The position numbers and the translations under genes are program-made. A stretch of DNA of 43,132 bases from a virus. Of this stretch, positions 12,615 to 29,537 are shown in pieces. Within the stretch, counting starts at the first letter, position 1, and each line of letters begins with the position of its first letter. The DNA is taken from the IMG/VR virus record IMGVR_UViG_3300013286_000020, positions 1 through 43,132 of that record; one strand, 5' to 3'. Below the pieces are notes generated by a model that saw only the letters and a list, made by a program, of their open reading frames with translations, was not told where the DNA came from and did no database searches.

Positions 12615-14387
12615 TTAGTAATCTATGTTTTCGGTAGAGTTGTTAGGAATGCTGATCAATTTACCAATCTCTGGCAAGTAAAGATATTTTAAATCACTCA
12701 TTCTCAGTGTGTGCAATGCATCTTCAATAGTTTCAACTAAAGGGTCGCCGCCTAGATTAAAGCTGGTATTGAATAAAATTGGCATGCCAGTGAGTTTATT
12801 AAATTCGCTGATCAAATTGTAATAGTTAGCGTTTTCCTCAGTAGTCACAGTCTGTATGCGGCAAGTTCCGTCTACATGGATAATACTAGGTACTTTATCA
12901 GCTACCCCTTCTTGACAGTTGACTGCATACATCATAAACGGAGTTGCATCCATACCGCGTAGATCAAACCAATCGTGTACCGCTTCTTTAAGAATTGTGC
13001 CGGCAAAGGGACGGAACCATTCACGATGTTTGACTTCGTTAACTACATCTTTGCCGTCTTTAACACGGGGATCAAAAAGAATACTTCGATTACCCAATGC
13101 TCTAGGACCTGCTTCGCTGGCGCCTTGGTATAAGCAAACAATGGTTTCTTCGCTGATAAGTTTAGCGATGTCAGCATCGTTAGCATCAACCATTGTTTCG
13201 CCGTCTTGCAATTTGATTTCGTAACTGCCTTTCTCAGCAAAGTAATTTGGGCCGTAATAGATAGTCTTGTGCGGACGACGAGTAGTATCTTGAGTAAGTT
13301 CGTGATATACCAGTTTTGCAGCTCCAATGCAGGTGCCGCCATCGTGTGCAATTGGTTCTACAAATAGGTTAATATCTTTGGGCAAGTGTTTTAGATATTC
13401 GTAATTGCCCACACAGTTCAGACCAAATCCGCCTGCAATTACAACATTCTTTTCTCCTGTACGCTCTACTGCATCCAAGATCAGTCTAACTATTTGCTCC
13501 TCACAGGCATGCTGAACAGCATAGGCTAGATCCATTTTAGATTCAAGTTCGTCGTTGTCTAGAGCAGGAAATGTCACTCGATCAATGTAAGCACCGTTAG
13601 GGTAATTAGGTGTGAATAAATTTCTATTGCTGAGATTACGACCTTCTGAACCCATAAAGATTTGCGGAATATTAGCATTTTCTTTACCGTATGGAGCTAG
13701 GCCCATGGCTTTTCCAGCTTCAATAAAACTAAATCCACAATACTCTGTCATAGCTTCGTAACATTTAGTAATACCGCAATGATCACTAAAGATCACATCA
13801 TGTAAGTCTTCCGACTTACCTCTATGATCGTGTGGTACTTGATATTTTGCATAAGCAGGTCGAGGGCCTCTTACACCAATGTGCTTAAATTTAGTACTGA
13901 AATTACAAGGATAATTGGCGGAGAAAATAGTTTCTAATTCCCAACCAGTTTCACCACTATCTCCCAATGGGATAAATGTCCCTGCGCCGTCAACAATCAA
14001 ACAGGCAGCCGAGTCAAATCCACTATTATAGAATGCACAAGCGGCATGTAATTCGTGATGTATATGTCCTAAGTCAATGACTTGGGGATGTTTTGCATCA
14101 TCATTATGTTGATCAATAAGTCCTAGCTTTCTTGCCCAGCCAGTATACATATCATCGCCGGTGAAATCAATTTTACCAGCTGCTGTTAACGGTTGAGTAT
14201 GTGCGACTACAAGATAATCCAATTTGTCAGTGTATTCTTTAATCTTCAGCATACCAGCAAGAGGGCCGCCATCGTATTTTTTACGGCTTAGTCGTTCTTC
14301 TTCTATATAAAATACAATTTCGCCATCTTTTAGTAAACAAGTTGCGCCATTATGGCCTCTAGTAATTCCTGCAATCCATTTTGCCAT
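12615..14387 (-). CDS. Carbamoyltransferase, NodU/CmcH/TobZ family
   Basis: The 590-residue length and the motifs fit full-length O-carbamoyltransferases, which use carbamoyl phosphate and ATP to form carbamoyl-adenylate and then carbamoylate a hydroxyl, often on a sugar. Seen: the ASKHA-type start IAGITRGHNGATC; metal-binding HIHHELHAACAF at about 108-119; VDGAG at about 132-136; VIAGGFGLNCVGN at about 315-328; EAGPRALGNRSILFDPR at about 424-440; HREWFRPFAGTIL at about 450-462; and LFNTSFNLGGDP near the end. All core elements are present, so it should be active. It has a CGGAGA ribosome site, follows the glycosyltransferase gene by 12 bases, and ends at a terminator. The linked GT9-like gene suggests the acceptor is a glycan; the actual acceptor is unknown. 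Confidence 0.92.
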   Translation of the reverse strand: MAKWIAGITRGHNGATCLLKDGEIVFYIEEERLSRKKYDGGPLAGMLKIKEYTDKLDYLVVAHTQPLTAAGKIDFTGDDMYTGWARKLGLIDQHNDDAKHPQVIDLGHIHHELHAACAFYNSGFDSAACLIVDGAGTFIPLGDSGETGWELETIFSANYPCNFSTKFKHIGVRGPRPAYAKYQVPHDHRGKSEDLHDVIFSDHCGITKCYEAMTEYCGFSFIEAGKAMGLAPYGKENANIPQIFMGSEGRNLSNRNLFTPNYPNGAYIDRVTFPALDNDELESKMDLAYAVQHACEEQIVRLILDAVERTGEKNVVIAGGFGLNCVGNYEYLKHLPKDINLFVEPIAHDGGTCIGAAKLVYHELTQDTTRRPHKTIYYGPNYFAEKGSYEIKLQDGETMVDANDADIAKLISEETIVCLYQGASEAGPRALGNRSILFDPRVKDGKDVVNEVKHREWFRPFAGTILKEAVHDWFDLRGMDATPFMMYAVNCQEGVADKVPSIIHVDGTCRIQTVTTEENANYYNLISEFNKLTGMPILFNTSFNLGGDPLVETIEDALHTLRMSDLKYLYLPEIGKLISIPNNSTENIDY

Positions 14388-14399
14388 GTGTTTCTCCGT

Positions 14400-15326
14400 T
14401 TATTTGGTTGTTTGTTTAATATGTGAGTCTATACTAGAGTATAGTGTCTCAAACTCGTCGTCTGATAAAGATAATGCTTGATCGTTAATTCGATCAGTTA
14501 AATGTGCATTGAAATCGCTGATTCGTATAGGACTGTAGCGTTTTCCAAATCCGGGTTTTTCCCATATGTTAAAATGCTGCGGATATGAGACATTAACTGC
14601 AAATGTGCTACCTAATACTACTGTTCCAGGAGTATTATATGCATAGGCAAAATGCTGTCCCACACTGTCACATCCTATAAAGTAATCAGCCACTTCTATA
14701 ACACCTGCCCATTTTCTCAAATCAAAGTTTTTAGGTTGAATGGTAAATTTATCACCGTCTGTGGGAAACTCACTCATGCATATAACATTATAACTGTTTC
14801 TTAATCTTTCTGCAAGTTTTAAAAAATCTTTTTGCTCAAAACTTCTAGTTCCCATGTCTGCTACAATGCCTAGATCTTGATTTTGCACAGCACCGCGGCC
14901 GTAAGGTTGTATTACAATGGTCTTTTCTTTGCCGTGTTCTTTTTTAGCAATATTAATAGCGGCCAGTGCATGCAGCTCTTCATCTTTGTTGAGATAAATT
15001 TTAGGTTTTGGTAAGTCTCGTAATTCAGAGTGATCATTGATTTGTTTATCAAATGCTTGGCTGATACTACACAGTTGATTATAGTAATCGTGATCTCGAT
15101 AGGGCTCGGTGGTAACTATCTCACCATTTTTAATAATATCTTCAAAAAGATTTTTATGATTCACATCAAATGCTCGATCTTGCAGCGTAGGATGACCAAA
15201 AAACATATCTAATCCTGATTCGCAAACAATATAAAACTCATCATGTGTTTTGGCATATAGTTCCAGTGCAGGCAATGCACTTACTACTCGTCCAGAACCG
15301 CCATTAATAAAAAATATTTTATACAT
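14400..15326 (-). CDS. GT9-like glycosyltransferase (heptosyltransferase type)
   Basis: A 308-residue protein with the two-Rossmann GT-B pattern of the ADP-heptose:LPS heptosyltransferase family (GT9). It begins FFINGGSGRVVSALPALEL, has the phosphate-contacting IVIQPYGRG at about 139-147, a FLKLAERL helix, and near 215-240 ADYFIGCDSVGQHFAYAYNT, equivalent to the family's CDSGPMHLAAALGTP segment. The usual Lys/Gly-rich acceptor loop at the N-terminus is reduced to GGSGR. Activity is plausible, but the sugar donor is unknown. It is preceded by the exact late promoter TATAAATA (15355-15362) and heads a two-gene unit with the carbamoyltransferase. Confidence 0.75.
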   Translation of the reverse strand: MYKIFFINGGSGRVVSALPALELYAKTHDEFYIVCESGLDMFFGHPTLQDRAFDVNHKNLFEDIIKNGEIVTTEPYRDHDYYNQLCSISQAFDKQINDHSELRDLPKPKIYLNKDEELHALAAINIAKKEHGKEKTIVIQPYGRGAVQNQDLGIVADMGTRSFEQKDFLKLAERLRNSYNVICMSEFPTDGDKFTIQPKNFDLRKWAGVIEVADYFIGCDSVGQHFAYAYNTPGTVVLGSTFAVNVSYPQHFNIWEKPGFGKRYSPIRISDFNAHLTDRINDQALSLSDDEFETLYSSIDSHIKQTTK

Positions 15327-15392: not shown

Positions 15393-16193
15393 TTAGATTA
15401 TGCTAACTGTCTGCAGGTATTCGTATAATTTGTCTGCCCATATTTGGTGTTGTAGAGCATCAGGGTGCGGTGGTACCGGAAAAGTGCCATTTTTATTCCA
15501 TACTGGAGCCCTAGGAAACTTATTGGTAACATGATTCCAAAATGCATAAGATCGATCAAATGGATGAAAATATTCGTTGTCAATAAGACTTAATGCCGCA
15601 CTGGCATGATCCGGAATAATGTCGGGGATAATCTCATCTATCCCGTTAAATTGCAAAATCTTAATTCCCAGTTTGTTTGCTAACCCTGTTAACGATAAAC
15701 TGTAATTTATTAACAATTCTTGTTGATAGTGCTGATGCGCCCAGTAATTAAAAAAATATTGATGAAGCCCGGCAAATGACTGTTGAATTTTTATATCTAA
15801 AATTTCGTTTGGAGAAACGCAAAAATAACTGCCCTCTGGTCCGGGGTGATGATGTTGTCCACAAGAGTCTTTATAAAATTTTTTTAAATCAAATCTAAAA
15901 GGAGTAAAAAATTCCAAACGCATCTCACCTGACCATTGCACTATCAATATTCCGTTGTTACCTAATTTGTTCTTATAGTTTGCTAATTCTTGTACAGCTA
16001 CTCTGTAAATACTGTTGTTGCTGCGTCCCGGATATCCTCGATTGATAATAGTATTTGCTTTGAGTAAATTTCCAAGATGTGCCGGCCATGCAGATAATTT
16101 GTCTTGTTCTAGGCTTTCACCTGGTTGGGTAATTTCACTGCCCCAAGTCAAGCTACAACCAACTGCAAGTAACCAATCAGTTTTACATGTCAT
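15393..16193 (-). CDS. SGNH-hydrolase-like protein
   Basis: The start WLLAVGCSLTWGSEI gives the nucleophile-Ser block of SGNH/GDSL hydrolases (Ser14), and RGYPGRSNNSIYR supplies the Gly/Asn-type second block. The end PPHPDALQHQIWADKLYEYL matches the last block, which carries the catalytic His, but the Asp three residues before HP is replaced by Val, so the triad looks incomplete. SGNH enzymes remove or transfer acyl groups on sugars and lipids. I chose the ATG at 16193, eleven bases inside the upstream gene, because it begins just before the first strand; an ATG at 16223 would add ten residues and enlarge the overlap to 41 bases. Neither has a strong ribosome site. Confidence 0.65.
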   Translation of the reverse strand: MTCKTDWLLAVGCSLTWGSEITQPGESLEQDKLSAWPAHLGNLLKANTIINRGYPGRSNNSIYRVAVQELANYKNKLGNNGILIVQWSGEMRLEFFTPFRFDLKKFYKDSCGQHHHPGPEGSYFCVSPNEILDIKIQQSFAGLHQYFFNYWAHQHYQQELLINYSLSLTGLANKLGIKILQFNGIDEIIPDIIPDHASAALSLIDNEYFHPFDRSYAFWNHVTNKFPRAPVWNKNGTFPVPPHPDALQHQIWADKLYEYLQTVSII

Positions 16194-16953
16194 ACAATGT
16201 TTTTTTAAAATAATCAGTCCCATGTTCTCTAGATTTTATCCATTGCATGTTTGGACTACATATACCGCTTTGGCTTTGAGTGCGACCTTGATATTCGTAA
16301 CCTTCCATTAGATACGGATTGTCGCAAACCACAGTAGTCCATCCTCCACCCATACTGAACATTTCTGTACATAGAACATGCCATCTAAAAAAACAATCTT
16401 CTGGTCCTGTTTCTTTTGGAACATTAACACTGGCAAACAAAATATCAATACCGTTGTTTTTTAATTTTCTAAGTAGTACCCCGCTGGCATCTGGCCATAA
16501 TATAGGATTAGACCAAAAATCGTTACAAATTAGACCGGCAATTTTATATTGCTTATACTGAACTGTCTCAACAGTAGTTCCAGGATTATAGTATTTTTGT
16601 TCCTCACCAAATATAATATTTTTGTAATGGGTATGTATTACTTCACCGTTAACTATAAATTTTTGTGTATTTGCCCAACGGTTAGTTTCGTCAACAAAAG
16701 CCGTACCTAAAATAATATCTACATCGGCGTCTTTAGAATAGTTTTTAATTTCTTCTAATGCACAAATTACTGCTGCTAACCTAGGGTCGTCAACAGAATC
16801 TGGTTTCCACATATAACCGCTTAATGCACATTCGGGGGTTGCAATTATTTCTACAGAATTGTCTTTGGCCCAGTCAATAGCTTTTTTAATTTCTTTAATA
16901 TTTTTTCCAATGTCCTGTGTCACAGGAATTTGACATCCGGCAAATGTAATCAT
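16183..16953 (-). CDS. Carbon-nitrogen hydrolase (nitrilase superfamily amidase)
   Basis: A 256-residue single-domain protein with the full Glu-Lys-Cys triad of the nitrilase superfamily: Glu41 in ATPECALSGY, Lys111 in HTHYKNIIFGEE, and Cys143 in IAGLICNDFW. Glu118, the second structural glutamate, is also present. The family hydrolyses amides, nitriles or N-carbamoyl groups, or transfers acyl groups. The Cys motif lacks the aromatic residues that mark well-defined subfamilies, so the substrate cannot be named. The length is close to that of the shorter amidases. It is translated from an AAGGAAC site, lies 7 bases after the 2OG oxygenase gene and overlaps the SGNH-like gene, so the three are one operon. 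Nitrilases are not part of the usual T4 virion gene set. Confidence 0.85.
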   Translation of the reverse strand: MITFAGCQIPVTQDIGKNIKEIKKAIDWAKDNSVEIIATPECALSGYMWKPDSVDDPRLAAVICALEEIKNYSKDADVDIILGTAFVDETNRWANTQKFIVNGEVIHTHYKNIIFGEEQKYYNPGTTVETVQYKQYKIAGLICNDFWSNPILWPDASGVLLRKLKNNGIDILFASVNVPKETGPEDCFFRWHVLCTEMFSMGGGWTTVVCDNPYLMEGYEYQGRTQSQSGICSPNMQWIKSREHGTDYFKKTLYDM

Positions 16954-16960
16954 AAGTTCC

Positions 16961-17716
16961 TTAGTACTTGTTGGTTAATGTGCGATCTTTAAAATACATG
17001 TCTAATCCGTCCATTGTAGCAGGATCGTCAAACAAATGATGGGGGCGCCACATGTTAGATTCGGCACTGTGGGCACTGCATATGTCAAATGCAATACTTA
17101 TTCGTAAATCTGCTTCTTCATATACAGTGCTTTCATGAGCAACATAGCTAGGAAACATTAGTATAAGATTTTCCTTAGTAGTAAATCGTTCTTTGTGTTG
17201 TAATCTAGTAGGGTCAATAAGATCTAAAGTGGTATTGTTTGTAGTAAGGTAATAGGTTCCACTAAGATAACTATGAGTATCTGAACTATGACTGTGTAGA
17301 CTAATAAATTCCCCTTGTCTCAGTACATTTGTCCATCCATGAATATATACTTTTGCTCTAGGATAATTTAATTCTTTCAAGAACAACAGATAATTTTTTC
17401 TAATTATGTGATACAGAGTGGTCAACTCTTGAGTCATTGGGAACCTTTGCAAATGTTCGCCGGCTTCTACGGGCACATCAAAGAATATGCTGTGCTGTTT
17501 CCAGTGTTGAGTCCAACTATAGGGATCTTTAAGATTTCGTGGGACATCGGTCACTAATTCTTCGCCTTGAATTTGTTGTTCAAAATCAAGCATCTGTGCT
17601 CGTAGTCTATTGTTTAATTCGTTTGGAGTATCGGTTAGATGGCAATAGATTGGAATTTTGATATTGGGTGCAAATTTAGATTTTGGCGGCTCAGAATTAA
17701 ACCATATCACACTCAT
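16961..17716 (-). CDS. 2OG-Fe(II) oxygenase-like protein
   Basis: The C-terminal half matches the phage-frequent 2OG-Fe(II) oxygenase family (Pfam PF13759 type): GEFISLHSHSSDTHSY with His141 and His143, SGTYYL at 152-157, DPTRL at 168-172, LILMFPSYVAHES with the distal His194, and LRISIAFDI with Arg205 as likely 2OG ligand. The N-terminal 120 residues are an extra region containing DPYSWTQHWKQHS. Such enzymes hydroxylate proteins or small molecules using Fe(II) and 2-oxoglutarate. The gene leads the 2OG-nitrilase-SGNH operon. Its ribosome site AGGAGGT is the strongest in the window, and lies inside an inverted repeat that also contains its late promoter. Confidence 0.8.
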   Translation of the reverse strand: MSVIWFNSEPPKSKFAPNIKIPIYCHLTDTPNELNNRLRAQMLDFEQQIQGEELVTDVPRNLKDPYSWTQHWKQHSIFFDVPVEAGEHLQRFPMTQELTTLYHIIRKNYLLFLKELNYPRAKVYIHGWTNVLRQGEFISLHSHSSDTHSYLSGTYYLTTNNTTLDLIDPTRLQHKERFTTKENLILMFPSYVAHESTVYEEADLRISIAFDICSAHSAESNMWRPHHLFDDPATMDGLDMYFKDRTLTNKY

Positions 17717-17792: not shown

Positions 17793-18059
17793 TTAACGAG
17801 TTAAAATTAATTTTTGAGTAAAGTCAGGAGCTTGAGGCCATTCTATTTGTGATAAGTCTTCTAGATCCTTATATTTAGTTGGAATATCTCTAAGTTCTTG
17901 CTTGTACGCCTTCCATGCATCTTTTATACTAGTTGGGGTATCAAAGTTGTAACGGTTTTCTGCTTCTAGCAACATTTGATCACGCATATTTCTAATGTTA
18001 TCCCATGTGACTGGGATAACATTGGTTATTTCTTCAGATTGTTGATTTTCAATTGTCAT
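17793..18059 (-). CDS. Tail-fibre assembly chaperone-like protein, short form
   Basis: An 88-residue protein whose core VTWDNIRNMRDQMLLEAENR, followed by a linker and DAWKAYKQELRDIP, matches the phage tail assembly chaperone family (Pfam PF16778 type: W..iR..Rd.lL ... w..YRq.LRdlp). These proteins usually help the fibre or adhesin encoded next to them to fold or attach. The gene directly follows the 341-residue Cys/Gly-rich protein by one base. Its first five codons (MTIEN) and the bases around the ATG are nearly identical to those of the 214-residue chaperone gene at 19100-19744, which suggests duplication. Confidence 0.7.
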   Translation of the reverse strand: MTIENQQSEEITNVIPVTWDNIRNMRDQMLLEAENRYNFDTPTSIKDAWKAYKQELRDIPTKYKDLEDLSQIEWPQAPDFTQKLILTR

Positions 18060-18060
18060 T

Positions 18061-19086
18061 TTAATATATTATCCTTACATATCCTGGGCCGCCGCCGCCG
18101 CCATTAGTGTGTTGAAAGCAACAGCTCGTAACAAATCCACCGGCACCACCTCCACCTGGGAACATGCCCGGCATTGAATTTTGGTGTCTTTCACATGCCG
18201 CATTGTCTGCAGTTGAACATGCATAATTTGTACTGCCTGCCGAATTGAACACGCAGCCAGTCGGAGGAAGGTCGCCCCCTATGCCCTTTGTTCCGGCAGT
18301 GTTGGTACAAGCCGTATTAAATCTAGTTTTGCTCCAACAGAAACAACTATAAGAATTCCATTGTTGATCAGCACCAAACGGAGTGCCCGATGACAACATG
18401 CGTTGGTTTGTACAGTTGCCGCTGCAACCAGGTACTACAGACATACTTGGACCAGATTGAATACATTTTCCGCTTGTGTACGCCACACATCCAGAATTTG
18501 TACCAATGTCGGGATAAACCGCGCTGGAAGTGAAGCTCGAATGTCCGCAACTTCGCTGTAGGCATCCGCACTGGTAGTAACAGTCAGAAGGACCGGTACC
18601 GCCACCTTGGCTGTCCATACAGAAGTTACCATTTCTTTTAATGAAAGAACATCCGCCTCTCGGTCCGGTACAACAATAAGTTGTCGCATCGCAGTTTGCT
18701 GGCCCACCGCAACCGCCTGCTCCTGCACATACTGTAAGAACATCACCTGGAGCAACCGTCAATATACCAGATATATATGTTCCAGCCCCCGCGCCTGGAG
18801 TAATTCCGCAACAATTTGCGGATGCGCCCGACCCGCCGCCACCGCCGGATCCCCACATTTCAACAACGACCTGTGTTACTCCTGACGGGACTGTAAATGC
18901 ACAACAGCAACCAACCGGAGTATATGTACCTTGTAGACAATTACAGTTATTTTCGCCTACCGTTGGATCAGGTGTACAGCCGTAGACTTCTAATGATCGA
19001 TATTTTCCACCGCCAGCACCGCTAGGTGCCGAAAAAGGCAGAACCTGACACGGAGCTGTTTTTGTAATATTAATAGTATATGGCAT
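18061..19086 (-). CDS. Cys/Gly-rich adhesin-like protein (paralogue 1)
   Basis: A 341-residue protein with 32 cysteines by my count (9.4%), many as CC pairs, and long Gly runs. Residues about 63-83 read FTVPSGVTQVVVEMWGSGGG, the signature of Gly-rich beta domains found in fibre tips, and the C-terminus GGGGGPGYVRIIY is shared in form by all three paralogues. A conserved middle element is VTVCAGAGGCGGP-like. The glycine content recalls the polyglycine-helix adhesins of T-even gp38 type, but the cysteines are not part of that family as I know it. No signal peptide is present. It is followed by the 88-residue chaperone-like gene and preceded by the 214-residue one, so receptor binding at the tail-fibre tip is the likely role. 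Confidence 0.6.
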   Translation of the reverse strand: MPYTINITKTAPCQVLPFSAPSGAGGGKYRSLEVYGCTPDPTVGENNCNCLQGTYTPVGCCCAFTVPSGVTQVVVEMWGSGGGGGSGASANCCGITPGAGAGTYISGILTVAPGDVLTVCAGAGGCGGPANCDATTYCCTGPRGGCSFIKRNGNFCMDSQGGGTGPSDCYYQCGCLQRSCGHSSFTSSAVYPDIGTNSGCVAYTSGKCIQSGPSMSVVPGCSGNCTNQRMLSSGTPFGADQQWNSYSCFCWSKTRFNTACTNTAGTKGIGGDLPPTGCVFNSAGSTNYACSTADNAACERHQNSMPGMFPGGGGAGGFVTSCCFQHTNGGGGGPGYVRIIY

Positions 19087-19099
19087 ATGAGTTCTCTAA

Positions 19100-19744
19100 T
19101 TAAACAGTTTTAGTAGCTATAATTTTTAAAAACTCTTCATGTGCTGCTAGACTTTCTGGACTGCCAACTATTGCTTGTGGCGGATATGTATCTTCTCCTT
19201 TGTACCAAGCACAAGTAGGTTTGACATCTTCTGGAACCCCAATACGAGCACTTGGAGGATATGGCGGCACATAGTCAGTCCATTTAACTGTCATAGGAGT
19301 TCTTCCGGCAGCCTGTTCTCTAGGAATTAAATTTCGGAGCAGTTGTCGGTGTTCTATCCACTCAGCTTTTAAAGGATTAGGTGTATCTTCGTTGAAAAAG
19401 TTATCAGAACCTGATAGCATGGAATTTCTTTGATTTCTTACATCGTCCCATGAACGATCTGCATAATAAACTGGCACTACATCGCCTGTGGCCCAATCAT
19501 AGTGGCATTTAGACATGTCAATATCAATGTTTCTGTCACCTGTTTCAAATGTAGATGGGTCAGCAAACAGCTTGTATAACCAGGTGCCAGGCACTGCCAA
19601 TACAAATTGTCTAGTCGGACCTGTTACCTGATCCTCAATATCCGGGCCTGGGTGTTCTTTTTCAGAATATACATGTGACTCAACAAAACCTGGAACAGCA
19701 CTATCAGCAGTCCAAATCATTATATACTTATTTTCAATTGTCAT
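19100..19744 (-). CDS. Tail-fibre assembly chaperone-like protein, long form
   Basis: A 214-residue protein. Residues about 96-145 carry the chaperone core RSWDDVRNQRNSMLSGSDNF followed by WIEHRQLLRNL, as in the 88-residue neighbour. An N-terminal domain (about 1-95) begins MTIENKYIMIWTADSAVPGF. A Pro/Tyr-rich C-terminal tail (about 150-214) contains VKWTDYVPPYPPSARIG and a similar second element, CAWYKGEDTYPPQAIVG, which looks like a short tandem duplication. It lies between adhesin-like paralogues 1 and 2, 13 bases from each. The likely role is folding or attachment of one or both. Confidence 0.65.
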   Translation of the reverse strand: MTIENKYIMIWTADSAVPGFVESHVYSEKEHPGPDIEDQVTGPTRQFVLAVPGTWLYKLFADPSTFETGDRNIDIDMSKCHYDWATGDVVPVYYADRSWDDVRNQRNSMLSGSDNFFNEDTPNPLKAEWIEHRQLLRNLIPREQAAGRTPMTVKWTDYVPPYPPSARIGVPEDVKPTCAWYKGEDTYPPQAIVGSPESLAAHEEFLKIIATKTV

Positions 19745-19757
19745 TTTATTTTTCCTA

Positions 19758-20585
19758 TTACATCCAAATTCTTATTAATCCAGGTGCACCTGGGCCACCG
19801 CAGCTGCATATACCGCAGCAACAGCTAGGGATTCCGCCGGTGCCGCCGCCACCGGGGAACATGCCTGTGAATCCGCAGACACCACCTGCTTTTCCGTTTC
19901 CGATAATATCTGTGTACGATGAATCGCAATCATATCCCTGGTGAATTGTTCTACCACCAAACGGACTTGATCCGCCCATAGTCCATCCGCAGTAGACGCC
20001 ATTATACCAAGCGTATCCAGAGCTGCCGCAGACATTTAAGTCCCCACCTGAGCCAGGATAACCTCCGTTTAATGTATTAATGTTATAAGAGTTTGGGTAG
20101 CAACGACTTTCGCCACCGTATCCGCCTTCTGCACAAAAATTAGTCAATCCAGAGCCTGTAACATATGTAGTGCTGCCTTTTAATCCACAACAGCATGTGC
20201 AAAATGCGCTAGGAACTCCACCTGCGCCACCTGCGCCTGCACAAAGAACATAGCTAGTTCCTGCAATCACTGCTAGCGTTTTTCTAGAGTATGCGCCGCC
20301 ACCGCCGCCTTGGCCGTAATTACAGCATATACCGTTTCCTCCAGGTGCAGCTCCGCCACCACCACCGCCCCATAGTTCAATGGTCATGTTGGTAACGCCT
20401 GCCGGTACAGTATATGTGCAACTTATTCCAGATCCAACATTGCCAGTTGATGCACATCCGCCTGTACCGCCTGAAAGTTGAAAAACACATGTGCCGGGCG
20501 TAGTAGTTACGGTTCTAGCACAGTTCCATGCGGCCTTGCTAGTAGAATCAGTGCCTAAAGTTATTTGAGAAACATATCTAGTCAT
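19758..20585 (-). CDS. Cys/Gly-rich adhesin-like protein (paralogue 2)
   Basis: A 275-residue paralogue with 22 cysteines by count (8%). The core motif YTVPAGVTNMTIELWGGGGG lies at about 54-73, followed by GQGGGGGAYSRKTLAV, YVLCAGAGGAGG, CTCCCGLKGSTTYVTG and FCAEGGYGG, and the end has MFPGGGGTGG then GGPGAPGLIRIWM. The order of blocks is the same as in paralogue 3 (20595-21395) and more loosely paralogue 1. The region between FCAEGG and MFPGGGG is the least alike among the three, as expected for a receptor-contact surface. The ribosome site is AAGGAC. The call rests on composition and on neighbouring chaperone-like genes. Confidence 0.6.
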   Translation of the reverse strand: MTRYVSQITLGTDSTSKAAWNCARTVTTTPGTCVFQLSGGTGGCASTGNVGSGISCTYTVPAGVTNMTIELWGGGGGGAAPGGNGICCNYGQGGGGGAYSRKTLAVIAGTSYVLCAGAGGAGGVPSAFCTCCCGLKGSTTYVTGSGLTNFCAEGGYGGESRCYPNSYNINTLNGGYPGSGGDLNVCGSSGYAWYNGVYCGWTMGGSSPFGGRTIHQGYDCDSSYTDIIGNGKAGGVCGFTGMFPGGGGTGGIPSCCCGICSCGGPGAPGLIRIWM

Positions 20586-20594
20586 TATTTGTCC

Positions 20595-21395
20595 TTAATA
20601 CCATAATCTTACAAGTCCGGGAGATCCGCAAGACCCACAAAGACAGTAGCTGCATTCACAAGTAGTAGCTGTTCCGCCGCCACCGCCGCCTGGGAATGCC
20701 GCGCCATATGCACTACAGCAACCGTTAGGACAGCATCCGCTATATGTAGTAAATGAACCAATGCCTCCAGCAAAGGCTGCATTACCACCTTTACCGTCCG
20801 ATCTGCAACCATTACTGCATCCAAAAATGTGACCACCTTCTCCGCATGCAGCTATGGCAAAATTTTGAATGTTTGCACTTGATAAACCGTTAATCGTTGA
20901 GCAGTTGGCGCCATTTTGTCCGAAACAAAGTGAAGTTAGATTACAACCGCCACAGCCGCCCATACCGCCTACTGCACAAAAAGTAGTTAGGCCAGTTCCT
21001 GTTACATAACTAGTTGCGCCTTGGGCACCTCGACAACAGGCGCCCATACCGCCGGCAGCGCCAGCGCAAATACTGTAGGTATCCCCAGGTGTGACCGCAA
21101 GAGTAGTTGAGATATAGTTGCCGCCGCCGCCGCCTTGACCCATCGTGCAACACTGGCAATTGGTGGTACCGCCTCCACCGCCTCCACCACTCCATAATTC
21201 AATAAAAATGGTGTTAACTCCGCTAGGTACTGTAAATGTACATTGGCAACTGCCAATAACTTCTAATCTAGTCTTAGTTGCTTGTGAATTTATAGTGCAT
21301 GTAAATGTACTGCCGTAGTTGGTACACATGGTAGCATCATCAATAGGAACCGTGATAGTATCTGTTCTATTGGGTAAATCTTGATAACGAGCCAT
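20595..21395 (-). CDS. Cys/Gly-rich adhesin-like protein (paralogue 3)
   Basis: A 266-residue paralogue with 27 cysteines by count (10%). Shared blocks are FTVPSGVNTIFIELWSGGGG, GQGGGGGNYISTTLAV, YSICAGAAGGMG, GATSYVTGTGLTTFCAVGG, FPGGGGGG and a C-terminus GSPGLVRLWY. Pairs such as CC and CxC recur through the chain. Its ATG overlaps the stop of the 870-residue protein by one base (TAATG), so translation is coupled to that structural gene. Disulfides, metal binding or intersubunit cross-links are possible uses of the cysteines; none can be shown from sequence. Confidence 0.6.
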   Translation of the reverse strand: MARYQDLPNRTDTITVPIDDATMCTNYGSTFTCTINSQATKTRLEVIGSCQCTFTVPSGVNTIFIELWSGGGGGGGTTNCQCCTMGQGGGGGNYISTTLAVTPGDTYSICAGAAGGMGACCRGAQGATSYVTGTGLTTFCAVGGMGGCGGCNLTSLCFGQNGANCSTINGLSSANIQNFAIAACGEGGHIFGCSNGCRSDGKGGNAAFAGGIGSFTTYSGCCPNGCCSAYGAAFPGGGGGGTATTCECSYCLCGSCGSPGLVRLWY

Positions 21396-24007
21396 TATTG
21401 GGCCTCCGTAATTCCAACTGCCAGCACATTAACCAGATTAGTTGACGAGCTAGCATACAAGTAAGTATTGGGCGGCATCAGCACACCTGTGCGCTCAATG
21501 ATACCGTTAGATGCAATTAACGCATCATATTCTATAAAGTCAGTGTTAAGCGGTTGTCCAGTTACTGTCAACTGTGCCTGTGCTAGACTGTTAAATGCTG
21601 TGGTTGTGGTAAATGTCTGTAGCGTGTTGGCCAATGTTTGTTGCGGGTATGGCAACAAGGTAAAGTGGCTAGTGCTAGTAATAGCACCAACATAATAGCT
21701 GGGCAACATATACATAGTACCGGTAGTGCTGCTTAAAGACATTCCAGTACCTGCTAGATAGTTAGCATAGCTAGTAGATATACTAAATGTAGTGCTGCTG
21801 ATTACCTGATATACATAATACACAGTGTTGGCAGTGATACCAGTACCAAAGATTGTGTTGGCACTGTTACCGTAGAACTGTATTGGTTGGCCTGCTACCA
21901 GTCCCACTGTACTGGTTGTTGTGCAGTAACCCGGTGAACCACTAGTTGTGTTAGTGATAATGAACGGGGTTACTGCACCCAATGCAGCACTAGGTGCTGG
22001 CAGTGTCTGCACATTGCCTGCCGATGTTCCTGTAAATACTACTGGTTGGTTTGGTAACAGATTGGCTGTTGTGCCAGAGCCCAGTGTAAACATATTGCTG
22101 TTGACTGTGGCAGTGTACTGGTTAATATTGGCCAGTGTAACTGGTGAACCAGAGCCAGGTGTTGTTGAAACTGTGAATGTGGTCAAACTTGGCACTGTGT
22201 TGACATAGTATGTGGTCAACGGTGCCAGTGCAGTAGCTCCTGCACCAATAGCTGTAGTAGCAGTCATTGGATAAGCAAAGTTACCAAAAGCAACTGCTGA
22301 GCCGCCGTTTGTCAAACTTAATGTGATAGTAAATGCTGATACCACTGTGACATAGTAAGCAACACCTGCTTGGATACCACCATAGGTATAACCATAGAAT
22401 GTAATCGGTTGATTATTAGACAATGAATTAGTATTGCCCAAAGTGGTTAGTGTAGTACTTTGACTGCTGACCACTGTGATCGTCTGTCCTTGCAAGTACA
22501 CTGGCTGATTCTGTGCCAAACTCAGTGTGCTGGGATAAACCTGTAATAGACCTGCTGAAACAGCAGTCAATGTGCTTGCTGATCCGCCGCTGATAGCAGC
22601 TATAGTAAAGGTTGTTGAACTTGGTATAGTTTTGATAAAGAAGTTGGTCAATGTGGCTGCAACACCAAACACATTACCAGCTGCATAGGTCATAGTGCCT
22701 GTAGCACTGGTACCAACTGCAAATGTGCTGCCGCCAACTGCTGTTGAAATAGTAACTTGTGCTGCAGGTGCAATGGCAGCTGCAGGAGCAGTGGTTAATG
22801 CCACTGTGCCACTAGTACCGTGTGTAAATGTAAACTGGCTAGTAGTGGCTACTGTGACTACCACATTGGAAATATCTGTGATACCCAATGCTGTGATACC
22901 TGTTATGCTTACTGACTGACCACTGGTTAATCCGTGCACCTGAGCACTGACCGCAGTGGTTGTGCCACTGCCGTAGGCACCTGGATCTGTTGAAGTGTAG
23001 GCCAGTGTAATGCTAGTAGTTGTGCTAGCGACAGCAGTGAATGTGCCGTTATAGCCAGTGTTGCTGTTACCTGACACTACATAACTAATACCAGTTAATG
23101 GTGCAATAGTTGCTGAGGGAATAGCAAATGTCACATAGAATACACCAGCTGAGCTGTTCCATTGTTTTAGACTCACACTGCTTAGTGTAGCGCCCCAACC
23201 TGTGTTCACAGTAACTGTGGTCAATGATCTAGAAATGCTGGCAATATAAATTGGACTTTGATCAGCAATTGTCAACACATAATACTGTGTGCTAGCCACA
23301 ATGTTTGAAAATGTGGTGCCTGAGAACACAATACCAACACCTGGATATAGGTTAGTTGTAGTACTTAGGGTTAGGTAGTTACCAGTTGAAGTATTAGCTG
23401 TTAAATTACCAGTAGCTGAATAATAGTTAAATGTAATTGGTTGATTCAATGAAAAAGCCGCAGTGCTCATGCTAACTGTGACTGAGCTGGTAAATGCACT
23501 GGTCAAGTACACTGCAGGACCGCCATAGCTAGTGCTAACTGTAAATGTGTAAGCTGTGGGAATAGTCAGTACATAATAAGTAGTACCGCCAGTCAAACCG
23601 CCTAAGTTGCCGCTGAATACTAAAGGCATGCCTACATACATCCACTGTGTGCTGTAGCAGGTAATTGTGTTTGTGCTTTGTGTAGTAAAGTGACAGGCTA
23701 CACTCTGTGTGGTATATGTGCTTGTTGAGCAAGATTGTACATTTATTGGCTGTGTGGTCAACACATTGCCAGTTGAACTAGTAGACCCAACTTGGAATGG
23801 AATCATTGCTGTGGTAGCTGTTACCAACTGTGGGTTCAACGGAACGCTAGTTTGTGCTAGTCGTACTCTAGTATCTGACGCGTTTCTATTGGTTACTGTG
23901 ACATTGACCACTGTGTTGTTAGCAGATGTAGGTGCCGCTACTTGTTGATAGTTAAAGCCATTTGGTGTTAGTAAGTCGAGAGCACCGTATTTTGCCGCTA
24001 TTGTCAT
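21395..24007 (-). CDS. Modular virion structural protein with repeated beta domains
   Basis: An 870-residue Thr/Ser/Val-rich protein. The N-terminus MTIAAKYGALDLLTPNGF leads into a strand-rich region with TVTNRNASDTRVRLAQTSVP (about 36-55). From about 100 to 800 it is built of repeated units with an FSGxxxGxLxxGxTYYVLxI, F/TVSTSYGGP pattern, the same beta module found in the 1833-residue protein. The C-terminal domain contains TDFIEYDALIASNGIIERTG and PPNTYLYASSSTNLVNVLAVG, which I recall from small structural proteins of marine T4-like phages. The original protein was probably the N- and C-terminal parts, expanded by inserted modules. It has an AGGAGA ribosome site and lies 28 bases downstream of the 1833-residue gene. 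Confidence 0.6.
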   Translation of the reverse strand: MTIAAKYGALDLLTPNGFNYQQVAAPTSANNTVVNVTVTNRNASDTRVRLAQTSVPLNPQLVTATTAMIPFQVGSTSSTGNVLTTQPINVQSCSTSTYTTQSVACHFTTQSTNTITCYSTQWMYVGMPLVFSGNLGGLTGGTTYYVLTIPTAYTFTVSTSYGGPAVYLTSAFTSSVTVSMSTAAFSLNQPITFNYYSATGNLTANTSTGNYLTLSTTTNLYPGVGIVFSGTTFSNIVASTQYYVLTIADQSPIYIASISRSLTTVTVNTGWGATLSSVSLKQWNSSAGVFYVTFAIPSATIAPLTGISYVVSGNSNTGYNGTFTAVASTTTSITLAYTSTDPGAYGSGTTTAVSAQVHGLTSGQSVSITGITALGITDISNVVVTVATTSQFTFTHGTSGTVALTTAPAAAIAPAAQVTISTAVGGSTFAVGTSATGTMTYAAGNVFGVAATLTNFFIKTIPSSTTFTIAAISGGSASTLTAVSAGLLQVYPSTLSLAQNQPVYLQGQTITVVSSQSTTLTTLGNTNSLSNNQPITFYGYTYGGIQAGVAYYVTVVSAFTITLSLTNGGSAVAFGNFAYPMTATTAIGAGATALAPLTTYYVNTVPSLTTFTVSTTPGSGSPVTLANINQYTATVNSNMFTLGSGTTANLLPNQPVVFTGTSAGNVQTLPAPSAALGAVTPFIITNTTSGSPGYCTTTSTVGLVAGQPIQFYGNSANTIFGTGITANTVYYVYQVISSTTFSISTSYANYLAGTGMSLSSTTGTMYMLPSYYVGAITSTSHFTLLPYPQQTLANTLQTFTTTTAFNSLAQAQLTVTGQPLNTDFIEYDALIASNGIIERTGVLMPPNTYLYASSSTNLVNVLAVGITEAQ

Positions 24008-24035: not shown

Positions 24036-27000
24036 TTACCAAGCATTTGTCCACATTGTATTTAGCGAAAGAACACGATCAACATATTTCTTTGGCACAA
24101 TATCTGTTGGATTTGTTGGAGTAGCATTTTGTGTACCTGTACCGTTAATGATCAAACTTGCACCGTTTACCACTGTGGCTGTCACATTAATATTAGTATT
24201 AGTATTAAGCTGTACCCTTTGGCCAGTCTGCGCTGTGATTGACAGATCATTTGCATTTTGTGTAGTAATTTGATTACTGTTAATAATTACCTGGCCGGCA
24301 GTCAAACTACTCACCGCCAATATAGCACCGCCTGCGCCCAACTGGCTGGCCAAAAAAGTCTTGATAGCTCGTTGTGTTGGTACTATGGCATCGCTGTTGG
24401 CTGAGAATGTGCCGTCAGTGCTGAACTGTGTTACACTGGCTCCGCCTGCGGCAAATTGTAGTGCATTCAAACCGCTCAAGTTGAACAAGTTGGCGTTTAA
24501 TGTGGCAACACCGGTGGCCTGTTGGACTGTAAACAATCCACCCACTCGGAAGTTACCGTCCTGATCAGTTGATGTAAAGAACACACGACCGCCACCGTTG
24601 CCCACAGCTTCGTTGGTTTGGATACGATTGGCTGTTGAAAAGTTGTTGGGGTAACCTGTAGATCCAAAATTACCAGATCCCACATACAAAAAGTCATGAC
24701 CTGTTAGTCGAACTTGGCTGTACTGTATAGTGGCTGTTGTTGCTGTGGCATTAGTAGGCGCATTAGTAACATTGAATCCAGGGTTTACTTGAATGTAAGC
24801 ACTGTAGTTACCCGGAGTACCACTTGATGATACTGTTTGTACTAATGTGTAATATGTAGTATTTCCTTGGAAAACCAAGTTAGCTCCTGCTACCGGTAAT
24901 GCTGATAGATTATTTAGATATATGTAAAAACCAACAGGTTGTACATCGGCATAACCATCACCGGTAATCACTGCCTGTGCATCTTTATATCCTGTCCCTC
25001 TGCTGGTCCAAGTTGGCTGACCTAATACGCCAGATGCTACCCTAACTGTAGTAGTGGCCGCTGAAGTTGCATTTGGATCTGTAATTACAATAGTAGGACT
25101 AGTATAATTACTTCCAGGATTGATCACACGGAATTCTGTAATAATTCCAGACAGTACCTTACAGCGTACTAATGCACCGCTACCTGTTGAGTCAGTAAAT
25201 GTTACACGAGGTTCAATAATATATTTAGAAGTAAAGTCTAAGTTGGTCAGTACGCTTGTACCTGACACTGCCACATCCCATCCGCACAACTGTACAGTCA
25301 TTGCTCCGCCGCTGGCCAAAGGAGTCAATGCTGCTGGAGTTGTACTACTTAATGTTGTCGATACCGAGAATGTAGTAGCAGTAAAGTTAGTACTGATTAC
25401 ATAATAAACAGTAAAATTATTAACTCCACCAAAAGTTGTTCCTTGGAATACAATAGGTGATCCCACAGGAATAGTACTAGTACTGCTAATGGTAAATGTT
25501 GATGCTGTACAGCTAGTAGCGGTCAGTGTGGCAAATGATTCTTTACAAACAATGGCAATCTTTGTACCACCGTTGTAGTAACCAATAAATCCATACTGGC
25601 CTGCACCTGTACCGTCGGTGAGCACAATACGCTCACCGTTGTAAGAAGCTGTATTGGCTGCATCAGCTGCTGACAATGTTAGTGTAGTACTAGTACCTGT
25701 TTGTGCATTATTTACAGCTGACTGATAATTGGCTCCGGCAGTAACAATACGCACTTCGCAGATACCGTTTGTAGAAATGTTAGGTCCACTAACACTAGCA
25801 CCAACTCCGGTACTCGATACTACATTGTAAGATGCTGAACTATATGTTTGTCCGGCATTAACATATTCTAACCACTGTATTGCGCCACCGCTGATTAAGA
25901 CATTAGTTACTGTTGCTTGTGTAGCACGAGTATTGACAGTACCTGTGATTGATAATTCTGCAGGGTTACCGCCTTCGGCTACGCAACCGTATGTACCATA
26001 TGAACTATTACCGTTTGTAGCACGGATTGCACCACCAAGCTCACTTAGATATCCTGCGTAACCATAGTATGAGAACACACTAACTGCTTCAACTTTAGCC
26101 AAGTTAGTACACCAAACAGCAATACCGTCTGATAAAATATTAGTAAAATCGTTTAAGGTCAATGACTTGTTGCCGCCTGCATGTAGTGAGCCGTCAATCT
26201 TTGCGCCAACACAGGCTGTACCAAACAGTGACACATTCTGAATATATGGGCTACGGCTGGTGATCCATACTGTGTCATCTTGTACGCCAGTTCCTGGATC
26301 TAGACTAAAATATGCGCCGGCATTCGGACGCTTGGTTCCGTAGCCATTGGCAGTGCCTAGTGCTCCGCTGAGTCCTGTTACGCTCATATTTCTAGCGCCG
26401 GTTGAATTACGCATGTAGAACATGTTGCTCATGGTATAACCAACAGTCACTGCACCTGTAACATTACCAGTAGTTGCATTGCTCAATGTCAATGTGTTAC
26501 TTGAAATGCTGATAATATATGTACCGTCAGGTATATATGCATTACCAGTCACTGCCATGCCTGCTACTACGCCGCTGGCGCTGGATAGTACTAAACTTGT
26601 ACCAGTAGAGCTGCTAGCTGTGGCAGTAAATGTATAAGGTTGTACTACTGTGGTTCTTAATTCGTCGCCTACTAAGGCCGTGAATGCTGGAACACTGATA
26701 GGTAATACTTCCGAGTATGTGCCTGTTTTAACATAGATAGTGGCATTTGGATTTTGCGGTATAGCCACAGCATTAATAGTACCTGCTGTAAGCCCGCTAG
26801 TTACAATGCTGAGCAAACTGGTAACTCTAGTAGTCATACCAGCTTCTGCAGAATATGCGCCATTGATTGTCTGTGACACATTGGCCGATACTCCGTTCAG
26901 TGTTTGGTAGTTGCTAGCAGGTGCTGTATTGGCCAGTACAGCGGTAGTAGCCAATGTTGATAGATAACTTAGACCAGCAATAAATTGAGTTATTAAAGGC

Positions 27001-29537
27001 GAAACTTGTAATATGTAGGTAGTAGTGGTTGCATAGAAATATTTTGCAAATATAACAGTTTCTATAGTGCCACCACGACCAATATCAAATATGAAAGAAT
27101 CAACACCATTTCCGACATAACTGCCGATATTGGAGCCGTTGAATGCTAGTTTGGCTGTAGCACTGCCAGTACCTCCTACTGTGGTTGCGCCACCACCACT
27201 GGTAGTCGCAACTGTGAAGCTGGTATTAGAAGTTATAGTTCTAACATAATATGTTGTGCTGGCTACTACAGATAAACTACCGGTAGCTGCTGTTACACCG
27301 GCTAATACTGGACCGCCATTAGTAGTTGACACTGTGATCAGTGTACTGCTCAATACATCTAACACATAGTATTGTGTGCTGTTGCTCAATGATCCAAATG
27401 CTGTGCCACTGAATGTTACCGGCTGACCGCTGGATAATGTACTACTGCTACCAACAAGTATAGCACCTGCCACTGAGGCTGTGATGGTTAATCCGCTGAT
27501 AATACCAATTGTCAGTGCAGCTGTAGCTCCTGCAGTAGTTGAAATCTGTAGTGTTGATCCTGACACATTGTAAACATAGTATATAACACCTGCTACCACA
27601 GAACCAAAACTGGTAGCAAATGTAATTCTTTGATTGACCGCAACCCCAGTTATGCTAGCACTCATGGTGATAGTAGTACCGCTTACACTGTTAACTGTCA
27701 ATGATTGACTAGCATAAGTTTGAGTGGCTGTAGTAGCTGTGGTAGCCACTGCTGTACCGTTAACATTTAATGTGCCGCTGATGTTTGTAAATGTCACGGG
27801 CATGTTGACTGCAAGTCCAGCAGTGTTGCTGGTCAAGAACGCATTACCGCTGGTAGAAACAACACTGGCCTTGTATGTGTAGGCCAAGTAGTTGACAACT
27901 TCTGCACTCATAAATGATCTGTTGTTTAACAACAGGTATTGTGCGCTAGGATTAGCTGGTCCCGATGCTACTTGAGCACAGGCATAGGCAATGGTTTTCC
28001 ATGGCTTGTCTAGTGAAGACCCGTATCCAGCAGCAGTATTGTCAGTGCCGGTAGGAGCAACATAGTAGACATTACCTACTTGATTGACTGTAGACCAAAC
28101 AGGATCTGAGCCAACCACTTTGAGCATTTGTCCGTCTGTGCCGATAGGTAATCTAGCATTACCGTTGGCAGAATAATAAATTAAGTCGCCGCGGGTTGTT
28201 GTAACATTACTGGCAGCACCTTGTGTTAAGGGATTCCAATAAGTGCCAGATAAATCGTTATCTGGTCTGTTGCCAGTAGAAGCTGTGTGTGCTTGAACTA
28301 CAATGTAACTATTTGAAGCATAGGTAATCGCATCACCTAGTTTGTATACTGTGCTTGCGGTCCACAGGCCTTTCCAAGCAATACCGGTGGTAATTAGTGT
28401 CCAAGATGCAGTATCGCTGGCAGGATTGGTATTGGCATTGTCTGCTTTGGCCACATAGACATATGAACCATAGCTGACTACATCGCCAACTTTGTATGTG
28501 GGACTAGCTGAACCGCTCCAAACACCTCGTAGATTAAATCCAGTGGTCAGTAACGCCCAGTATGTTGTTGCTGTAGAAGGTGTTTGGCTTGTTGAATGAT
28601 TTTGTTTGGCAACATAGGCATATCCGCCGTAAGTTACAATGTCACCTTGCTGATATGTTGTGCCACCGGTCCAGCTGTTTTCAAACTGCAAACCTTCTAC
28701 AAACAATGCAAATTTATCTGTGTCAAATACAGTACTCGAATCATGGGCAGTGGTACAGATCCATTCGTTGGCTCCGTATTTTACCACATCATTTATTTTA
28801 TAATGGGTGCTGTTACTATTCCATGTGCCCTTCCAATCAAACCCTGGAACAAACACAATCCACTTGTTGATATCAGATTCAAGTAAAGTAGCATCACTGG
28901 TATGAGCTGTGGCACACTGGTAAACCATGCCGCCGTATTTGACCAAATCACCTTGGCGGTAAAATACATTACCTGCCCATAGTCCGTAGAATGTCAAACC
29001 ATCAAAAATCAGTGTCCAATAGTTGTTAACATTTAGGTCGGTATAAAATCCGCCATTAACAGATCCGGCGGTGTGTCCAACTAGACAGATATAGTCTTTA
29101 GCGCCGTTCTTGACAATGTCGCCTATTTTGTAAAAAGCTCCACTGGTCCATGTGCCTACCCATTGGATACCGTCGGTCATCAAAGTCCAGTTGCTGGCTG
29201 CTAGATCTGAATAAAATCCACTGTTGGCAACTGCACTACTGACATGTCCTGTTGTACAGATATAGTCTTTGGCGCCAAATTTAACAATGTCATTGATTGC
29301 ATAGGTAGAGCTGACTGTCCAAGTACCTTTCCAACTGATACCATCAGACATCTGTGTCCAATAGCCACTGGCTATGTCGGTGTTGAATCCAGCTTGTGTA
29401 CTAGAAGAAGTGTTGCCAACTAAACAAACATATGTCTTTCCGCCATAACGAACAACATCGTCTTTAACGTAAGCAGTACTGGTGCTCCAAGTACCTTGCC
29501 ATACGAATCGTAGTCTACCTAATTTAAATTCAGCCAT
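24036..29537 (-). CDS. Large tail-fibre-like protein with eight CBM5/12-like repeats and a beta-helix
   Basis: An 1833-residue protein. Residues about 8-440 are eight tandem units of the form W.GTW...T.Y..GDIVKYG...Y.C...H..., resembling CBM5/12 carbohydrate-binding modules. Residues about 487-526 contain YVAPTGTDNTAAGYGSSLDK then PWKTIAYA, the usual entry of a pectate-lyase-like beta-helix. Residues about 556-800 are inserted beta modules. A helical VGNGVDSFIFDIGRGG element (about 805-820) follows. Further on come YVKTGTYSEVLPI, YFSLDPGTGVQDDTVWIT and SLFGTACVGAKIDGS. The C-terminal region has RVFFTSTDQDGNFRVGGLF, FSTDGTFSANSDAIVPTQ and ends with PKKYVDRVLSLNTMWTNAW. The last blocks are typical of long tail fibres in aquatic T4-like phages as I recall them. 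The late promoter GATAAATA is at 29576-29583; AAAGG precedes the ATG. Confidence 0.75.
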   Translation of the reverse strand: MAEFKLGRLRFVWQGTWSTSTAYVKDDVVRYGGKTYVCLVGNTSSSTQAGFNTDIASGYWTQMSDGISWKGTWTVSSTYAINDIVKFGAKDYICTTGHVSSAVANSGFYSDLAASNWTLMTDGIQWVGTWTSGAFYKIGDIVKNGAKDYICLVGHTAGSVNGGFYTDLNVNNYWTLIFDGLTFYGLWAGNVFYRQGDLVKYGGMVYQCATAHTSDATLLESDINKWIVFVPGFDWKGTWNSNSTHYKINDVVKYGANEWICTTAHDSSTVFDTDKFALFVEGLQFENSWTGGTTYQQGDIVTYGGYAYVAKQNHSTSQTPSTATTYWALLTTGFNLRGVWSGSASPTYKVGDVVSYGSYVYVAKADNANTNPASDTASWTLITTGIAWKGLWTASTVYKLGDAITYASNSYIVVQAHTASTGNRPDNDLSGTYWNPLTQGAASNVTTTRGDLIYYSANGNARLPIGTDGQMLKVVGSDPVWSTVNQVGNVYYVAPTGTDNTAAGYGSSLDKPWKTIAYACAQVASGPANPSAQYLLLNNRSFMSAEVVNYLAYTYKASVVSTSGNAFLTSNTAGLAVNMPVTFTNISGTLNVNGTAVATTATTATQTYASQSLTVNSVSGTTITMSASITGVAVNQRITFATSFGSVVAGVIYYVYNVSGSTLQISTTAGATAALTIGIISGLTITASVAGAILVGSSSTLSSGQPVTFSGTAFGSLSNSTQYYVLDVLSSTLITVSTTNGGPVLAGVTAATGSLSVVASTTYYVRTITSNTSFTVATTSGGGATTVGGTGSATAKLAFNGSNIGSYVGNGVDSFIFDIGRGGTIETVIFAKYFYATTTTYILQVSPLITQFIAGLSYLSTLATTAVLANTAPASNYQTLNGVSANVSQTINGAYSAEAGMTTRVTSLLSIVTSGLTAGTINAVAIPQNPNATIYVKTGTYSEVLPISVPAFTALVGDELRTTVVQPYTFTATASSSTGTSLVLSSASGVVAGMAVTGNAYIPDGTYIISISSNTLTLSNATTGNVTGAVTVGYTMSNMFYMRNSTGARNMSVTGLSGALGTANGYGTKRPNAGAYFSLDPGTGVQDDTVWITSRSPYIQNVSLFGTACVGAKIDGSLHAGGNKSLTLNDFTNILSDGIAVWCTNLAKVEAVSVFSYYGYAGYLSELGGAIRATNGNSSYGTYGCVAEGGNPAELSITGTVNTRATQATVTNVLISGGAIQWLEYVNAGQTYSSASYNVVSSTGVGASVSGPNISTNGICEVRIVTAGANYQSAVNNAQTGTSTTLTLSAADAANTASYNGERIVLTDGTGAGQYGFIGYYNGGTKIAIVCKESFATLTATSCTASTFTISSTSTIPVGSPIVFQGTTFGGVNNFTVYYVISTNFTATTFSVSTTLSSTTPAALTPLASGGAMTVQLCGWDVAVSGTSVLTNLDFTSKYIIEPRVTFTDSTGSGALVRCKVLSGIITEFRVINPGSNYTSPTIVITDPNATSAATTTVRVASGVLGQPTWTSRGTGYKDAQAVITGDGYADVQPVGFYIYLNNLSALPVAGANLVFQGNTTYYTLVQTVSSSGTPGNYSAYIQVNPGFNVTNAPTNATATTATIQYSQVRLTGHDFLYVGSGNFGSTGYPNNFSTANRIQTNEAVGNGGGRVFFTSTDQDGNFRVGGLFTVQQATGVATLNANLFNLSGLNALQFAAGGASVTQFSTDGTFSANSDAIVPTQRAIKTFLASQLGAGGAILAVSSLTAGQVIINSNQITTQNANDLSITAQTGQRVQLNTNTNINVTATVVNGASLIINGTGTQNATPTNPTDIVPKKYVDRVLSLNTMWTNAW
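28215..29515 (-). repeat. Eight tandem CBM5/12-like modules
   Basis: Eight units of about 50-58 residues, each with a tryptophan near the start, a (Y/H)xxxDxV strand, a Tyr-Gly or Phe-Gly turn, and a second aromatic block ending in W(T/N/A)L before an xxxG linker. Units 1-3 are closest to each other (GAKDYIC in units 2 and 3). Unit 6 has AYVAKQNH in place of YICxxGH. Confidence 0.8.

Follow-up and report, generated by a model that had tools for sequence, protein, structure and literature searches.

Cysteine-rich relatives of a phage fibre-tip family, usually encoded in sets of three, in an uncultured T4-like phage and in cultured cyanophages

The closest described counterpart of the proteins considered here is the fibre protein gp24 of the myocyanophage Pam3, in which a TNF-like/glycine-rich domain forms the distal part of a trimeric fibre. 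Its loop ends have been proposed to contact the receptor, and the fibre is folded by gp25, a phage chaperone dedicated to it; neither 'cysteine' nor 'disulfide' appears in the text of that paper (PMC9608196). A second point of comparison is phage Milano, whose virion proteins, including the receptor-binding proteins (RBPs), are joined by disulfides though made in the cytoplasm, and whose structural proteins average 2.1% cysteine (Cys), with sheath and baseplate linked (PMC10811340). Here we analyse three genes, A, B and C, in the virus record IMGVR_UViG_3300013286_000020, the whole 43,132 bases of which are referred to as the window. The window encodes a T4-type portal and major head protein, and its source is an uncultured, T4-like, aquatic phage. 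The three genes and the two chaperone genes that accompany them are as follows.

20595-21395, minus strand: gene A, open reading frame (ORF) for a candidate Cys- and glycine (Gly)-rich tip protein, 266 aa, 27 Cys, first position (slot 1) of the array
19758-20585, minus strand: gene B, candidate Cys- and Gly-rich tip protein, 275 aa, slot 2, the member modelled with AlphaFold
19100-19744, minus strand: tail-fibre chaperone, 214 aa, between B and C
18061-19086, minus strand: gene C, candidate Cys- and Gly-rich tip protein, 341 aa, 32 Cys, slot 3
17793-18059, minus strand: short tail-fibre chaperone, 88 aa, mostly the helical region of PF16778, after C

In a preliminary description of this DNA the three genes were said to be adjacent; they do occupy the places given for them on the minus strand, but the chaperone gene at 19100-19744 splits B from C. 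We propose, with a probability of roughly 0.72, that A, B and C are receptor-binding tips of the long tail fibre encoded upstream, and that the Cys at their loop tips probably oxidise after lysis. The proposal builds on the observed gene content, family membership, predicted fold of B, Cys conservation and array layout, from which we infer the position on the fibre, receptor binding and disulfides.

All three proteins exceed the 24.3-bit cut-off of the Pfam family PF21722 (Gly_rich_2), with 39.2 bits for A, 50.2 for B and 47.3 for C. The fold was assigned via a single-chain AlphaFold model of B, for which 82 sequences from the window and from viral contigs served as input, whereas A and C rest on the Pfam profile. 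The model has a predicted template-modelling score (pTM) of 0.78, and its predicted local distance difference test (pLDDT) values are mostly >70 over residues 51-275, being lower in loops near 170 and 220-240. It matches the Pam3 fibre (PDB 7ypx, 7yfw) with Z of 20.4 (7ypx) and 19.6 over 196 residues, a root-mean-square deviation (rmsd) of 2.7-2.8 and 28% identity, followed by the tail tip of Bxb1 (Z 14.8) and the TNF-like/glycine-rich domain of ALK and LTK (Z about 8-8.8); among the matches listed, all others have Z <4. The likeness to ALK and LTK is one of fold only, their domain belonging to an animal receptor ectodomain with about 17% identity, far below the Pam3 match. The S16/T2-type gp38 (6F45, the PGII sandwich capping gp37) was not among the matches listed for B, where its absence carries no weight. 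A search of PDB with a profile of the three genes gave no match, and one with an 82-row profile gave RemZ (E 1.4e-4) and one chance-level match; the RemZ match covers its N-terminal glycine-rich part (8gl8_D, residues 5-198). On this model B has a Pam3-type fibre-tip fold, a predicted TNF-like beta-sandwich with a stack of glycine-rich loops. The term adhesin-like used in the preliminary description is thus borne out by the three Gly_rich_2 matches, the predicted fold of B, and the chaperones and long tail fibre alongside.

The Cys counts given earlier (32, 22 and 27, many in CC or CxC) were reproduced: Cys makes up 27 of 266 residues in A (10.2%), 22 of 275 in B (8.0%) and 32 of 341 in C (9.4%), compared with 69 of the 11,992 residues (0.58%) of the other window genes counted. 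Relative to the window mean, the binomial chance of such richness is 1e-18 to 1e-28 per gene, and together the three short genes hold more Cys than all remaining genes of the 43-kb window. CC occurs 4, 5 and 5 times in A, B and C, and CxC 4 times in each. The share of Gly is 19-26%. The alignment, in which the other two members are 42% and 32% identical to A, shows a TVPxGV...E[LM]WxGGGG start and a G..G.PG.[VI]R end in all three, and in the entropy profile the middle parts diverge most. In the model of B, 19 of the 22 Cys lie outside predicted strands, many of them in turns between Gly stretches (87-88, 129-133, 255-262), and CC, CCC and CxC clusters are found at loop ends.

Two scans of viral contigs yielded 443 family ORFs, 325 of them unique, in 161 loci that include four cyanophage regions and two genome-bin loci, and all 443 have at least 5.7% Cys. 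Because this sample was chosen by likeness to Cys-rich queries, a second was drawn with a Cys-free DNA motif (ExWGGGGG). It contains at least 68 domains, of which 36 have ≤3.2% Cys (30 of these <1%) and 32 have >5%, mostly at least 10%, with nothing at 4-5% among the matches listed, proportions that describe this sample only. Cys content is thus bimodal, and the Cys-rich proteins form a discrete subfamily, in which about 10 columns keep Cys in >80% of the sequences. The search for the same Cys pattern in related phages that had been proposed therefore found it in 325 unique relatives, and the homologues with unconserved cysteines that would have spoken against the earlier view did not emerge, as the Cys columns are conserved across this large family.

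The window array groups with four loci (L003, L004, L005 and L006), whose orthologues are 41-50%, 51-62% and 43-54% identical to slots 1, 2 and 3, respectively. Among the uncultured carriers, 18 contigs of 76-223 kb show no psbA, which P-SSM2 and S-SSM7 do have; this hints at non-cyanobacterial hosts, with the proviso that the contigs may be incomplete. Two contigs (L164 and L165) of one Neomarinimicrobiota metagenome-assembled genome (RS350) carry triads at identical coordinates, probably phage sequence in the bin.

The family is also carried by the cultured cyanophages P-SSM2, P-SSM5, S-SSM7/S-SSM6a, Sf-FS3, S-CAM1 and S-CAM3, where it is annotated as hypothetical. The Cys-rich 'hypothetical proteins' of these Kyanoviridae comprise PSSM2_304 and 306, SSSM7_114-116, SXBG_00224-226 (S-CAM1) and the S-CAM3 members. 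With A and C as queries, tblastn at the default E gave no match among isolate phages; the cyanophage members were found with relaxed limits and queries from relatives, and those of P-SSM2, S-SSM7 and S-CAM1 match the profile with E of 8e-55 to 9e-20. They share with the window proteins the family (by profile), the Cys richness and the gene order after the long tail fibre. The window differs in belonging to another lineage, with its own A, B and C slots and a chaperone between B and C, whereas P-SSM2 has only two members, with its chaperone-like gene between them. In the order of genes, the window and the cyanophages agree in a long CBM fibre followed by Cys-rich genes, a chaperone-like gene, sugar genes and a carbamoyltransferase; all four cyanophage regions have the long tail fibre, the Cys-rich genes, the chaperone-like gene, a counterpart of the window gene at 14400-15326 (45% identity to that of S-SSM7) and the carbamoyltransferase. 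The remaining window genes concerned are listed below.

24036-29537, minus strand: long tail fibre of 1833 aa, containing eight stretches of CBM_5_12 (phrog_9851, 1.7e-196; PF02839, 5.4e-37)
21395-24007, minus strand: repetitive protein, 870 aa, between the long fibre and the triad, with a C-terminus that matches a P-SSM2 protein
16183-17716, minus strand: CN_hydrolase and 2OG-Fe(II) oxygenase genes, directly after the adhesin module
12615-15326, minus strand: carbamoyltransferase, 56% identical to the Nol-like carbamoyltransferase of S-SSM7, and a neighbour protein, in the same order as in cyanophages

The long tail fibre, the N-terminus of which is 34% identical to the P-SSM2 tail fiber PSSM2_301, and the 870-aa protein lie upstream of A, B and C, which are transcribed in that order. 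At its C-terminus the 870-aa protein resembles the C-terminus of a P-SSM2 protein of 106 aa from the same place (E 3e-6; 28% over 57 aa), and at its N-terminus it matches that protein more weakly; it looks like a small protein with a long repeat insertion.

Cys-poor relatives occupy the same position in other cyanophages. Syn9 gp38 (annotated 'tail fiber assembly') and S-SM1 SSM1_049 are Gly_rich_2 proteins behind a tail fibre with 0.8% and 0% Cys, which argues that the cysteines are a property of the subfamily rather than of the fold or the place. The virion proteomes named in Sullivan 2010 (S-SM1, S-PM2 and Syn9) were considered and set aside, since only Cys-poor members or none were found in those phages, which so have no bearing on the Cys-rich ones. 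In Syn9 gp39 (L191:7150-8328), two near-identical Gly-rich stretches flank a segment that looks out of frame, which may be a duplication or an assembly error.

The chaperones were identified from profile matches and gene position. The 88-aa product at 17793-18059 matches PF16778 (Phage_tail_APC) with 41.9 bits, over the cut-off of 26.6, whereas the 214-aa product reaches 20.2 bits, under that cut-off, and matches phrog_4912 (tail fiber assembly) at 2.6e-5; the S-SSM7 protein at the corresponding place scores 38.4 bits and is the only one of the chaperone-like proteins in the four cyanophages to match PF16778. A homologue of either window chaperone adjoins 140 of the 161 family loci. The 88-aa protein is a shortened second chaperone, an orthologue of which follows slot 3 in L003-L006.

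By this evidence, each tip would consist of a short variable N-terminus, a TNF-like beta-sandwich and stacked glycine-rich strands, with the loop ends of the stack facing outward and varying most. The two Tfa-type chaperones would fold and assemble the tips, as gp25 does for Pam3 gp24. The Cys that take the place of ordinary side chains would sit mainly in the terminal turns of the glycine loops and at the ends of a few strands; since the fibre is made in the cytoplasm, they would be reduced in the cell, and after lysis, in oxic water, would form disulfides within and between subunits, giving rigidity to a tip whose glycine loops would otherwise be floppy.

Several results weigh against this proposal. 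The Cys number is odd in 176 of the 325 unique proteins, with no even bias, and Cys were mostly gained or lost singly on the tree, so many of them are probably outside fixed intramolecular pairs. The Pam3-type N-terminal helical bundle, responsible for docking and trimerisation, is not predicted in B, the residues 1-49 of which are disordered (pLDDT <50 nearly throughout) and contain no helix of at least 4 residues; docking is therefore hypothetical. The moderately confident model of the 214-aa chaperone (pTM 0.55) has no clear match to the fold of Pam3 gp25 (7ypx_a; Z 3.9, rmsd 9.7 over 132 residues) and no Foldseek match at E 0.001. Finally, we are not aware of any mass-spectrometric study of virions that covers one of the Cys-rich members identified here.

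How many different chains make up one tip is a question of stoichiometry. Complete arrays, taken as the 76 non-redundant loci flanked on each side by 1.2 kb or more, have exactly three members in 66 cases and two in 10. One of the ten two-member arrays (L092:728-4950) is flanked by two further Cys-rich, Gly-rich ORFs missed by the profile and probably has four members. For 78 of 83 triads, the closest counterpart of each of the three proteins belongs to another array and is not one of its siblings. Within the window group (the window and L003-L006) each slot is a supported clade (0.975-0.998), and the same holds for a second small lineage (0.79-1.0). A single ancient A/B/C split, that is, universal slot orthology, was rejected, as the slots are not monophyletic across all arrays. 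The sets look lineage-specific, having apparently arisen via separate triplication or homogenisation; some deep nodes of the tree have weak support, one large group having 0.25. Within the large 'SYKK' group the scaffolds of siblings are more alike (0.72) than those of same-slot relatives (0.59) and the middles differ, which suggests that in some arrays the genes were recently duplicated or the scaffold underwent gene conversion.

The three genes are about equally likely as not to encode three separate homotrimeric tips with three receptor specificities, which is compatible with receptor-binding tips on the long fibre. Pam3 gp24 is a homotrimer (PMC9608196), the middles of siblings are strongly divergent and two-gene lineages exist, P-SSM2 among them, which shows that three is not obligatory. 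Against separate homotrimers, exactly three members in 66 of 76 arrays, together with slot-specific clades in the window lineage, make a pattern more regular than freely varying specificities would lead one to expect, and there is a single long fibre gene upstream. A bolder version of the tip proposal, which we hold to be unlikely, makes the three paralogues one obligate heterotrimeric tip per long fibre, with a redox-sensitive crown of loop-tip Cys that would cure after lysis and with the recurrence of threes, as lineage-specific clades in several lineages of phages, following from the threefold symmetry of the shaft. Such a tip is comparable in principle to the head of C1q with its three different chains. 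Three genes are what a 1:1:1 heterotrimer would call for, but a trio of separate homotrimers fits equally well.

As for the state of the cysteines, formation of disulfides after lysis is favoured at a little under even odds, because exposed clustered thiols are likely to oxidise in oxic water and because the RBPs of Milano are disulfide-linked. Analysis of co-loss on the tree (1035 tests) left one adjacent column pair after correction, probably an effect of alignment register, and resolved no pairs. Searches of four cyanophage genomes and six long contigs revealed no VKOR homologue; a search of the same set for Erv1/Alr gave no match, and since its control was silent too, that search carries no information. 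All four cyanophages encode glutaredoxins. The parity, co-loss and oxidase results are compatible alike with inter-chain disulfides, metal or free thiols, and so do not decide on the cross-linked or metal-binding tip of the preliminary description.

It is doubtful that the Cys instead remain reduced, as small packing residues or direct thiol contacts to the receptor. Cys is small, and where a conserved column has another residue in its place this is most often Ala, followed by Tyr, Gly, Ser and Asn, with an occasional His; the lack of a VKOR match in the phages searched would suit such a state too. However, Cys-poor members of the same family manage without cysteines, and thiols clustered at an exposed tip would be expected to oxidise in oxic water. 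Slightly less likely still is a tip clasped by metal (iron or zinc) bound at the loop-tip Cys rather than by disulfides: the clusters at loop ends, the equal frequency of odd and even Cys numbers and the gain and loss of single Cys would all fit, yet conserved His partners are missing (A and B have one His each, besides the occasional replacement noted above), and Pfam and PHROG profile searches gave no similarity to a known metal-binding family. An artefactual origin of the Cys richness, from codon composition or from low-complexity ORFs, has next to no probability and is refuted by the conservation of Cys columns at the protein level across relatives of 30-60% identity, for although the Gly-rich coding sequence is higher in G+C than the window (0.48-0.50 versus 0.42), Cys accounts for only 0.8-0.9% of the long fibre and of the 214-aa chaperone next to it, and Gly-rich homologues with 0-1% Cys exist.

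Set beside the known systems, the window proteins share with Pam3 gp24 the TNF-like and glycine-rich distal domain (as predicted for B), the GGGGxGG loops, a probable dedicated chaperone and variable loop ends. They differ in that Pam3 has an N-terminal helical bundle, docking to the baseplate and a single homotrimeric fibre protein, whereas the window has what are usually three genes, 8-10% Cys and a short N-terminus, behind a long fibre. Milano, likened here by description and not by sequence, offers a precedent for disulfide-linked RBPs in a virion but has no glycine-rich tip. To speak of a new kind of tip, as the preliminary description did, is too strong, since the fold and the role are known from Pam3 gp24 and Gly_rich_2; what is new is the cysteine loading and the usual three-gene layout, the fold, family and role being known in outline. 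No paper on the Cys-rich members or the triad was found in the open-access literature searched, outside which most subscription journals lie.

For most marine T4-like phages the receptor-binding proteins have yet to be assigned. The present analysis names a widespread and recognisable class of candidates for them, usually in threes and present in cultured cyanophages. If their Cys oxidise in seawater, they would stand, at 8-10% Cys compared with the 2.1% of Milano structural proteins, at the extreme among virion parts that the environment brings to maturity, and if the three proteins co-assemble, they would form a heteromeric tip on a threefold fibre.

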